The position numbers and the translations under genes are program-made. Below are positions 53,720-55,961 of a DNA stretch of 64,000 nt, in pieces; the stretch's first letter is position 1; every line of letters starts with the position of its first letter. Origin of the DNA: Bacteroidales bacterium (lineage in GTDB: Bacteria > Bacteroidota > Bacteroidia > Bacteroidales > UBA12077). Where the stretch lies: assembly GCA_030637515.1 (NCBI GenBank), contig DAOWGM010000008.1, positions 1 through 64,000 of the forward strand. The letters are read 5' to 3'. Below the pieces are notes generated by a model. It searched no databases and had not been told where the DNA came from. It worked only from the letters and a program-made list of their open reading frames with translations.

Positions 53720-55099
53720 ATGTTATCTGTAAAAGAGAAATCACTTGAAAGAGCAACTCTAATTGTTACCTCATTTGCTGCTTTTGTAACTCCTTTTATT
53801 GGTTCTGCAACAAATATAGCATTGCCAGCTATTGGAAAAGAATTCTCTGCAAATGCAGTAATGTTAAGCTGGGTTGCGACTTCATTTATTTTGTCGGCTG
53901 CTGTGTTTTTAGCTCCATTTGGTCGCCTGGCAGATATTGTTGGACGCAAAAAAATATTTAACATTGGTTTAATCATTTTTACTATTGCTTCGTTCTTTTG
54001 TGCATTTTCACCCAATATTGAAATTCTTATTTTTGGTAGAGTTGTTCAGGGTTTGGGTGGTGCTTTAATTTTTGGAACAGCTATGGCAATTGTAACTTCT
54101 GTTTTTCCACGCGAAAGAAGAGGAAAAGCCTTGGGAATTGTTGTCGCTTCTGTTTATACTGGCTTAACACTCGGTCCTTTTATAGGAGGCTTTTTAACAA
54201 AAAACTGGGGCTGGGAAGGAATATTCCTATTTACCGTTCCTCTTGGAATAATCTCTGTTGTCTTAAGTTTTATATACCTTAAGGAAGAATGGGCTGATGC
54301 TAAAGGTGAAAAGTTTGATTGGAAAGGCTCCATTATTTACGGTTTGGCAATTATTTCTTTAATGTATGGATTTGGCAAACTTCCAGAATTTACCGGCTTT
54401 TTATATACGCTGGCAGGAACTTTAGGAATTATTCTTTTTGTTTATTTCGAGAAAAGGCAAGAGTTTCCAGTTATAAATATTCAGTTATTCCAGAACAACC
54501 GGGTTTTTGCATTTTCAAATTACGCTGCTTTAATTAATTACAGCGCAACATTTGCTATAGGTTTTTTATTGAGTCTTTACTTACAATATATCAAGGGATT
54601 GGATCCTCAGGAAGCAGGACAAATACTTGTAATTCAGCCAATATTAATGGCTGTTTTCTCGCCAATTACCGGGAGATTATCAGATAAAATTGATGCCGGA
54701 AAGGTAGCTTCTGTTGGTATGGCAATGATTTCTGCCGGATTATTTGTTATTGCGTTTATCGGACCCAATTCCAGTATTTGGTTTATTATTCCAATACTGG
54801 TTGTTTTTGGAATTGGTTATGCCCTGTTTTCATCTCCGAATTCAAATGCAATTATGAGTTCTGTTGAAAAGAAATATTATGGAATTGCATCTGGAACTGT
54901 TGGCACAATGAGATTAGTGGGGCAAATGTCGAGTATGGGAATTGCCATGATGATTTTCTCCATATTTATTGGAAAAGTAGAAATAAACCCTTCGAACTAT
55001 CCTGAATTTATTCAGAGCATACGAACCGCATTTTTGATATTTGCAGTACTATGCTTTATTGGAATATTTTTCTCATTAGCACGTGGGAAATCAAAGTAG
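53720..55099 (+). CDS. MFS drug:H+ antiporter, DHA2 (14-helix) type
   Basis: 459 residues from the ATG at 53720, one base after the dtd stop. The frame is open further upstream (53657) but that part overlaps dtd and is not a likely start. Motif A is LADIVGRKKIFNIG and motif C-like Gly-rich segments follow (TGLTLGPFIGGFLTKNWGWEGIFL), typical of the EmrB/QacA group. About 14 membrane helices are predicted. It probably expels a toxic compound with proton import; the substrate is unknown. Sitting in the dtd-MazG-deoC cluster suggests a later addition. Confidence 0.9.
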   Translation: MLSVKEKSLERATLIVTSFAAFVTPFIGSATNIALPAIGKEFSANAVMLSWVATSFILSAAVFLAPFGRLADIVGRKKIFNIGLIIFTIASFFCAFSPNIEILIFGRVVQGLGGALIFGTAMAIVTSVFPRERRGKALGIVVASVYTGLTLGPFIGGFLTKNWGWEGIFLFTVPLGIISVVLSFIYLKEEWADAKGEKFDWKGSIIYGLAIISLMYGFGKLPEFTGFLYTLAGTLGIILFVYFEKRQEFPVINIQLFQNNRVFAFSNYAALINYSATFAIGFLLSLYLQYIKGLDPQEAGQILVIQPILMAVFSPITGRLSDKIDAGKVASVGMAMISAGLFVIAFIGPNSSIWFIIPILVVFGIGYALFSSPNSNAIMSSVEKKYYGIASGTVGTMRLVGQMSSMGIAMMIFSIFIGKVEINPSNYPEFIQSIRTAFLIFAVLCFIGIFFSLARGKSK

Positions 55100-55138
55100 C
55101 TTTAAGCTGTTTGCTTTTAGCCTTTAGTAAAACCATAA

Positions 55139-55611
55139 GTGTCCCCCTTGAGGGGGATTAGGGGGTGGAATATTTAACAAAAAAATTATGAAAAAGGCAT
55201 TGCCAGAGAACAATTACTGCTACAATAAGAAATTACAATCTCTTGCTCGCGAGTTACGTAATTCAATGACAAAAGCTGAAAGCTGTTTATGGAAGTATGC
55301 ACTTAAAGCAAATAAAATGAGTGGATATCAATTTACCAGACAACGTCCAGTATTAGATTACATTGCTGATTTTATGTGTAAAGAGCTAATGCTGATTATT
55401 GAGGTTGATGGAATTAGCCATAAATTTGATTCTATTGAGAAAAAAGATAAGTTTAGACAAACAAACTTAGAACAAATAGGTTTTGATGTTATACGATTTA
55501 AGGATGAAGAAATCCTGAATAATATTGGAGATGTAATTAATACTATTGAAACTTTCATTAAACAACGGGAGGTATAGTCCACCCCCTTTTATTCCCCCTC
55601 AAGGGGGATAC
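55139..55611. mobile_element. Inverted-repeat-bounded cassette carrying a DUF559 gene
   Basis: The left arm (55139-55169) and the right arm (55578-55611) are reverse complements except for one 3-base gap and two substitutions. Each arm contains its own small hairpin, CCCCC TTGA GGGGG. The arms are strikingly G/C-rich in an AT-rich genome. They tightly enclose one gene: the right arm starts on the base after the stop codon (55577), and the left arm ends 18 bp before the ATG. No transposase or tRNA is near. The design parallels the cassette at 8254-8764. Confidence 0.65.
55188..55577 (+). CDS. DUF559 (Vsr-like/PD-(D/E)xK) putative endonuclease
   Basis: 129 residues. The DUF559 pattern is complete: SLARELRNSMTKAESCLWKYAL, then GYQFTRQRPVLDYIADFMCKELMLIIEVDGISH, then GFDVIRFKDEEILNN. 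D in YIADF and E-V-D in IIEVDG are the predicted metal ligands of the restriction-endonuclease fold, related to Vsr mismatch endonucleases. DNA cleavage has not been established for most members. The gene is bracketed by G-rich inverted repeats and sits between MFS and MazG-like genes, consistent with a small mobile cassette. Cytoplasmic, no other domain. Confidence 0.9.
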   Translation: MKKALPENNYCYNKKLQSLARELRNSMTKAESCLWKYALKANKMSGYQFTRQRPVLDYIADFMCKELMLIIEVDGISHKFDSIEKKDKFRQTNLEQIGFDVIRFKDEEILNNIGDVINTIETFIKQREV

Positions 55612-55634
55612 ATATAGATACAAAATAAGAAATA

Positions 55635-55961
55635 ATGACACTACAAAAAGCACAAAAATTAGTAGATCAGTGGATTAAAAAATATGGTGTTCGATATTTT
55701 AACGAACTAACTAATATGGTATTACTTACCGAAGAAGTTGGTGAACTTGCACGTATTATTGCTCGTAAATATGGTGAGCAGTCATTTAAGGAAAGTGATA
55801 AAGAAAAAAACCTCGAAGAAGAAATGGCTGACATACTTTTCGTACTAATTTGTCTTGCGAATCAAACCGGTGTAGATTTAACAGAAGCCTTAGAAAAAAG
55901 TCTGAAAAAGAAAACTGATCGCGATAGCGATCGTCACTTAAATAACGAAAAGCTTCAGTAG
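55635..55961 (+). CDS. MazG-like nucleotide pyrophosphohydrolase
   Basis: 108 residues, one MazG-fold unit. EEVGELARIIARKYGEQSFKES and LEEEMADILFVLICLANQTGVDL carry the ExxE and ExxD metal ligands. Such single-domain enzymes hydrolyse NTPs or dNTPs to monophosphates to clean the nucleotide pool. An intact palindrome GATCGC-GATA-GCGATC sits in its last codons. It lies between the DUF559 cassette and deoC, and with dtd makes a recurring neighbourhood. Confidence 0.9.
   Translation: MTLQKAQKLVDQWIKKYGVRYFNELTNMVLLTEEVGELARIIARKYGEQSFKESDKEKNLEEEMADILFVLICLANQTGVDLTEALEKSLKKKTDRDSDRHLNNEKLQ

Follow-up and report, generated by a model that had tools for sequence, protein, structure and literature searches.

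REPINs and RAYTs are described in the accessible part of PMC3116915. In the REPtron arrangement, short palindromes with a tag box are spread over the genome singly or in facing pairs, and one gene, encoding an HUH tyrosine transposase, is flanked by its repeats, which also persist where the gene is missing. The available text of PMC3733652 reports intragenic GTAG/CGTC REPs, with tRNA synthetases among their hosts, as well as TIRYT elements, whose terminal inverted repeats, some of them with GGGGWSAS, form repeat families. Palindromic elements lying in frame in protein genes are reported for Rickettsia in the accessible part of PMC10969869. For the enzyme described below, the nearest reference is Caulobacter VsrA, a stand-alone DUF559 protein whose active-site residues are given as E73, D102, D115, H119, and D124 in the available sections of PMC12907096, where it is discussed as a repair enzyme without mention of repeats.

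The unit that we report here, a DUF559 nuclease gene bracketed by inverted G/C-rich repeats, shares this layout with the REPtrons, and the repeats linked to it show the features of REPs and REPINs: a palindrome with a tag, many copies, and inverted doublets. It departs from REPtrons in that its gene encodes an EDxHD-type nuclease, with no HUH tyrosine transposase beside the repeats, in that RAYT genes of the same clade have palindromes of another kind next to them, and in that the gene-bearing unit itself occurs in frame within genes. Terminal inverted repeats that form families are common to it and to the TIRYT/TIRtron elements, as far as the accessible description of these goes, but their enzyme is a Y1 transposase, whereas the window unit encodes DUF559 only. 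Like the Rickettsia elements (as described) and the intragenic GTAG/CGTC REPs, it places palindromes in frame, tRNA synthetases included; those inserts are described as encoding peptides a few tens of residues long at most, whereas the DUF559 insert is a complete nuclease domain. With I-Bth0305I and Vsr it has in common the fold, the active-site residues, a sporadic distribution, and copies inside conserved essential genes, and, as at homing sites, the LeuRS and IleRS sites are uninterrupted in relatives. Unlike the EDxHD homing endonucleases, DUF559 units show no splicing element, the insert being translated through, and the gene travels with inverted palindromic arms and has several unrelated hosts. 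Insertion sequences differ in having a known transposase and target duplication: the unit encodes DUF559 only, and at the IleRS site we saw no duplicated target. VsrA and E. coli YcjD are stand-alone DUF559 proteins like that of the window, and ycjD has a repeat downstream. We found no earlier report in the open-licence literature (subscription journals lay outside its scope), where DUF559 never occurs together with “inverted repeat” or “repetitive extragenic palindromic”. Our preferred reading, with a probability of roughly 0.6, is a compact, REP/REPIN-like mobile element with a gene for an EDxHD nuclease and not for an HUH transposase.

In the window, by which we mean the whole 64,000-nucleotide stretch analysed, the DUF559 gene occupies positions 55188–55577 of the plus strand and encodes 129 aa (Pfam PF04480, E 1.2e-32; 112.4 bits against a curated cut-off of 20.6). 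The left arm, on the plus strand at 55140–55169 (TGTCCCCCTTGAGGGGGATTAGGGGGTGGA), consists of a perfect hairpin (CCCCCTTGAGGGGG, 55143–55156) and then a G-box (GGGGGTGG, 55161–55168); the right arm is an inverted copy, on the minus strand at 55578–55610, with a C-box (CCACCCCC, 55579–55586) and then a hairpin (CCCCCTCAAGGGGG, 55594–55607). Hairpin and box agree between the arms, the spacer separating them differs by a few bases, and a repeat search paired the arms as two inverted matches, 26 nt at 88% and 14 nt at 93%. The original prediction, made from the sequence of the stretch, had described inverted G/C-rich arms with an internal hairpin around this gene, and they are indeed matched pairs: the left flank against the reverse complement of the right flank gives a local score of 23.0, as compared to a maximum of 16.5 in 5000 dinucleotide shuffles and of 17.5 at 316 window positions of the same geometry (every 200 bases, including those near the arms). 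The pairing of the arms is not a matter of chance. Also as predicted, the right arm directly follows the stop codon (TAG, 55575–55577), the span 55139–55611 comprises just arms and gene, and the arms are extreme in G/C, their hairpins being the sole CCCC-N(0-12)-GGGG places in a window of 31.8% G+C. DUF559 is the only coding content between the arms, and no known transposase was found there.

The unit of the window is an insertion. Two flanking genes, an MFS transporter gene on the left (53720–55099, plus strand) and a gene for a MazG domain protein on the right (55635–55961, plus strand), mark the empty site: in seven same-genus genomes they are adjacent, 0 to ∼25 bp apart, and the 535 bp at 55100–55634 are missing. 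The MFS gene is absent from the site at an eighth locus (L209), and a ninth (L210, G008:C123) is rearranged. At the ninth, a sequence that by reading is Y1-transposase-like lies near the end of the MFS gene, whose final 44 codons are present twice. The window belongs to Bacteroidota, judging from relatives that are identical to named Bacteroidales loci. Its own genome (4.13 Mb, 185 contigs) has four copies of CCCCCTNNAGGGGG, namely both window arms, one arm of a second DUF559 gene (L003, contig C67), and one gene-less copy (L080, contig C146). The genome has four DUF559 matches; at L001 and L003 the arms are built like those of the window, L001 lying amid ∼10 such hairpins, and a shorter DUF559 gene (L004) has just a weaker repeat downstream. 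This genome is poor in the repeat pattern defined below, with 25 hits against 5 for the control.

The predicted fold of the protein (pLDDT 87.7) is nearest to 3hrl (NGO0050, E 8e-8) and also matches the homing endonuclease I-Bth0305I (3r3p, E 5e-4), which is of the EDxHD type; Vsr itself (1vsr) is matched weakly, at E 0.04. The residues E31, D61, D74, H78, and D87 are all present and are kept in 140 of 141 complete domains (108/109 stand-alone and 32/32 in long ORFs), and three of the four gaps between them are equal to, or within one residue of, those of VsrA, the last being 9 as compared to 5. By modelled fold and catalytic residues, the protein thus answers to the description of an EDxHD/Vsr-like PD-(D/E)XK nuclease, in line with the Vsr-type fold that the original prediction had given it. 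Purifying selection is shown as well: dN/dS was 0.04–0.39 in 18 of the 19 pairs that gave a usable non-zero value, the exception being a tandem pair with very few changes. These come from 28 hand-chosen pairs, of which seven had saturated dS, one was identical, and one had a dN of 0, and several others had a dS above 1. A role as a defence system was rejected (PADLOC hits were weak, best E 9e-5, and formed no system), as was carriage by plasmids or phages, which is rare (42 of 72,556 plasmid and 2 of 50,697 phage records).

The association of DUF559 with such repeats recurs across several phyla. DUF559 was matched in 41 of 98 genomes (relatives, the window's own genome included), with 0 to 6 matches per genome; the absences may be undercounts, since the E. 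coli control genome gave no PF04480 match and yet K-12 has ycjD. Within a locus, the match between the two arms exceeded 95% of a null of mismatched pairs in 23 of 66 flank sets from the relatives and 99% in 16 of 66, a set that includes fragments, counts L075, L076, and L079 twice, and leaves out L023 and L054 for short flanks. In named genomes, the corresponding figures for stand-alone domains were 17/52 and 10/52, and no control ORF out of 88 taken at these loci exceeded the null. Here 52 of 59 stand-alone domains could be scored (seven had short flanks), 24 domains in long ORFs were set aside, L158 contributes three tandem copies and L171 two, and L180 and L200 share domains with L047 and L037 of the relatives. 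The three genes of L158 (2471–3982, Pedobacter sandarakinus) are near-identical and ∼560 bp apart, and at L119 (G064:C40:1500-6500) one DUF559 gene lies amid five tandem facing repeat pairs.

We also counted, within 250 bp of each gene, a fixed motif (a stem of at least 5 with a C-rich 5′ arm, followed by GGGG within ∼14 nt) that was defined from Bacteroidota flanks and then used in the same form for the long-ORF, RAYT, and cyanobacterial sets; some strong arms (L186 and L140) escape it. Most stand-alone DUF559 genes in every set carry it on at least one flank (27/46 in relatives, 36/52 in named genomes, and 16/17 in cyanobacteria), as do 22/30 copies within long ORFs and 14/14 such copies in cyanobacteria, as compared to 5/155 control ORFs and 8/130 cyanobacterial control flanks. 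The cyanobacterial figures count each gene once; they were 17/18 and 15/16 before removal of duplicates (L240/L333 and L241/L334) and of a second weak hit in L219. Both flanks have the motif at 17/46, 10/52, and 6/17 stand-alone genes, respectively, at 14/30 long-ORF copies (12/14 in cyanobacteria), and at 2/155 control ORFs. It is absent within 250 bp at 19/46 stand-alone genes of the relatives and 16/52 of the named genomes. This survey of flanks in other genomes had been proposed with the original prediction, and its counter-case, most homologues lacking repeats, is not what we found. With each gene counted once, 17 copies in long ORFs have the box outermost at both ends, 8 the hairpin, and 3 a mixture, the other 18 not having arms at both ends; of the stand-alone copies, 15 have the hairpin outermost, 6 the box, and 14 a mixture, and 92 do not have arms at both ends.

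Further afield, we hand-picked five loci among the 15 plasmid rows listed. The Deinococcus copy has long inverted arms, that of Pseudanabaena has one facing pair at the left and two at the right, that of Azospirillum has arms, that of Sphingomonas has repeats at one side only, and the Neisseria gonorrhoeae gene (L337, NZ_CP119142.1) is flanked left and right by similar hairpins that point the same way, which the motif code misses. The last record, filed as a plasmid, is by its size of 2.17 Mb probably a chromosome. In E. coli K-12, a repeat composed of a G/C hairpin and GGGTGAGGGG lies ∼165 bp downstream of ycjD (L335, 5190–5250), and no such repeat was found on the upstream side; repeats of this type occur in 5375 of 5426 E. 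coli genomes, with a median of 18 places per genome, and may be the known BoxC element of that species.

The strongest evidence of mobility, in-frame insertion within coding genes, was not part of the original prediction. Long ORFs with DUF559 had looked like ordinary fusions fit for a negative control, a use that was dropped because arms were found around the domain inside host genes: ORFs longer than 260 aa with DUF559 are host genes that hold arm, DUF559, and arm in frame, with the arms translated. The hosts, recognized by Pfam or by reading, are LeuRS, IleRS, chorismate synthase, HisF, ArgB, HsdR, HsdM, and Eco57I/MmeI-type methylases, and they belong to Bacteroidota, Pseudomonadota, Thermodesulfobacteriota, Chloroflexota, Cyanobacteria, Kiritimatiellota, and one Methanophagales archaeon. 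LeuRS carries the unit in four genomes (G089, G026, G077, and G043) and, judging from coordinates, probably in G054; HisF carries it at an N-terminal position in eight Sphingobacteriaceae or their kin; and in a planctomycete HsdR (L189) the ORF ends at a stop just past the unit. In LeuRS, the insertion place is the turn between GAEMKF and EIFTTRPDT, and the distance from NWIG to RPDT is 31–39 residues in 26 and 169–190 residues in 3 of the 29 readable loci among the 30 best. One IleRS site could be followed through 17 same-genus loci, of which 12 are empty, one has the full unit (+144 aa), three have a gene-less box-hairpin-box (+13 aa), and one has the boxes only (+5 aa). The tree of the IleRS flanks groups the three gene-less loci, and is compatible with one or several insertions among the five non-empty loci. 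In a tree of the 141 domains, one clade (support 97/96) spans three hosts, LeuRS, IleRS, and chorismate synthase, and another (98/95) includes two copies in one genome (G072), in HsdR and in a methylase, that are 79% identical. A further LeuRS (L120, G059:C185:46500-50500) has a degenerate DUF559-like domain at another place, with ECSAG where others read EVDG, which is possibly an old, tamed insertion.

Repeats of this kind form a population much larger than the genes. Among the relatives, the 33 with stand-alone DUF559 have a median of 9 hits to the pattern CCCCT..AGGGG..GGGG and the 65 without it a median of 1 (p 7e-7), and the hits to this pattern outnumber those of the reversed control in 30/33 and 25/65 genomes, respectively; the control itself does not differ between the two groups. 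Over the 98 relatives, repeat hits and stand-alone DUF559 correlate with a rho of 0.51 (G013 being counted with three copies). In 96 cyanobacteria, the same pattern occurs 20.2 times per Mb in genomes with a strong DUF559 match as compared to 7.6 without (p 9e-7); with genome size and the control pattern held, the partial rho is 0.42 for any strong match and a weak 0.21 (p 0.04) for stand-alone copies alone, and in some cyanobacteria control hits exceed repeat hits (e.g. G194, 4 repeat and 144 control). A related hairpin pattern is found in 13 of the 14 genomes behind the named loci, at up to 348 places as compared to 0–3 for the reversed control, and the places listed for G097 include seven facing pairs, 51–80 bp apart, like those of REPINs. 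Strict dependence of the repeats on DUF559 was rejected in view of the many repeat-bearing genomes that lack the gene: 12 of 28 relatives with at least 10 hits have no stand-alone DUF559, and at least 50 hits each are found in 16 cyanobacteria that have no strong match. The second counter-case given with the original prediction, repeats equally frequent without any gene and unrelated to it in position, is not borne out, as control ORFs seldom have the motif. The repeats are also abundant without any gene, often as facing pairs, so that the DUF559 gene accompanies only a small part of a larger population of repeats. Arm and enzyme do not seem to co-evolve strictly: the correlation of arm sequence with DUF559 lineage is weak (rho 0.12, p 0.046, in 34 loci with the motif), and arm similarity rises clearly only above 60% protein identity (0.54 as compared to 0.32–0.35).

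Since gene-less repeats outnumber the units, the main rival reading is that the DUF559 gene homes into resident repeats, which would be targets spread by something else; the nuclease would cut them, and its gene would be copied into the break. The many repeats in genomes without DUF559, the occurrence of arms in both orientations, the gene-less repeats at the same IleRS site in same-genus species, and the presence of a homing endonuclease among the fold neighbours all accord with this reading. The empty sites, however, show no target of the kind it needs, with no resident repeat between MFS and MazG in the seven genomes or in 12 of the 17 IleRS genes, and with 26 of the 29 readable LeuRS loci plain and free of repeat; we consider it unlikely, though it is the best placed of the alternatives.

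A second alternative would have the repeats moved by an HUH (Y1) transposase of the RAYT or TIRYT kind, with the DUF559 gene as a passenger. Y1_Tnp matches are indeed common (71 of 98 genomes), RAYT counts correlate with repeats (rho 0.41) and with DUF559 (rho 0.44) in the 98 relatives, and the GGGGWSAS shared by some TIRYT terminal inverted repeats in the accessible part of PMC3733652 is close to the G-box. Yet 64 of 66 RAYT-like ORFs, many of them from repeat-rich genomes, lack the motif, the other two having it on one flank only and none on both; these came from the 30 best loci and 35 chosen mostly from repeat-rich genomes, four further ORFs having flanks too short to score. The 30 best RAYT-like genes of the clade (L083–L112) bear other palindromes of their own, e.g. 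GTCCCGTTAGGGAC and GGGCTTTAGCCC, unlike the DUF559 arms, and one genome (G088) has two stand-alone DUF559 genes and 18 repeat hits with no Y1_Tnp match. We regard this passenger reading as improbable.

More improbable still is that DUF559 is an ordinary Vsr-like repair or restriction nuclease and that the repeats next to it have nothing to do with it, being hairpins that regulate or terminate transcription. Bacterial genes often have hairpins near their ends, which would suit such a reading. The repeats, however, also lie upstream of genes and, in frame, within them, control ORFs rarely have the motif (the 5 of 155 above), the presence of DUF559 is patchy (41 of 98 genomes), and the sole terminator-like site in the stretch is a minus-strand stem at 55586–55568 and not the arm hairpins. 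The proposal of the DUF559-bearing VsrA as a mismatch-repair nuclease, in the available part of PMC12907096, nonetheless fits it.

Both arms align at full length with the Rfam family RF01762, whalefall-1 (55139–55170 at 21.9 bits and 55577–55611 at 17.7 bits, the gathering score being 37), and among the window arms and the other arm-bearing loci no Rfam match reached a gathering score. The least probable reading, that the arms are a structured RNA processed by the nuclease, draws on this weak likeness, but the match lies under the curated threshold, arms are found in either orientation and within translated sequence, 69 kb from 19 other arm-bearing loci yielded no whalefall-1 match at E 0.05, and the closest fold neighbours that have a name act on DNA. 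The whalefall-1 candidate RNA is listed from whale-fall sequences only in the accessible part of PMC2864571; going by sequence resemblance, it may itself be a member of the DUF559-arm repeat class.

We thus favor the reading of a mobile nuclease unit, in which the DUF559 gene and its inverted G/C-rich REP-like repeats would move as one, with gene-less repeats, single or as REPIN-like facing pairs, as its non-autonomous relatives within a genome. The comparisons show the build and recurrence of the unit, its insertion as a block, gene-less forms at a shared site, and an intact catalytic site under purifying selection. Insertion would take place either between genes or inside them in frame; in host genes, the arms are translated as a linker peptide, and the nuclease domain would be expressed from the host gene. 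We infer that the EDxHD nuclease may recognize the folded or double-stranded arm and nick or break arm-bearing or target DNA, that host repair would then copy the unit in a homing-like manner, and that the same nuclease activity could spread gene-less repeats in trans. Rearrangement between the palindromic arms might leave gene-less remnants. The minimal mobile unit of the original prediction, an end repeat with a nuclease gene and no known transposase, is well supported by recurrence across phyla and by the empty sites, and that prediction as a whole is partly supported. We hold at about even odds a broader proposal, that such units form a new class of mobile element in bacteria and archaea, palindrome-ended and spread by a lone EDxHD nuclease, which would be the autonomous source of widespread G/C-rich REP-like repeats in Bacteroidota, Cyanobacteria, Pseudomonadota (E. 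coli included), Deinococcota, and others, and would persist by in-frame insertion at permissive loops of genes that are essential or serve restriction-modification.

Many bacterial genomes are full of REP-like palindromes, of which only those tied to RAYT-type transposases have a known source. If our reading is true, a second, unrelated enzyme partner would give an origin for a large share of REP-like repeats. The in-frame copies would offer an uncommon example from nature of tRNA synthetases and biosynthetic enzymes that tolerate an entire nuclease domain, and they explain odd linker peptides (e.g. SPSPTLPKGKG and SPFGGAGGG) in predicted proteins.
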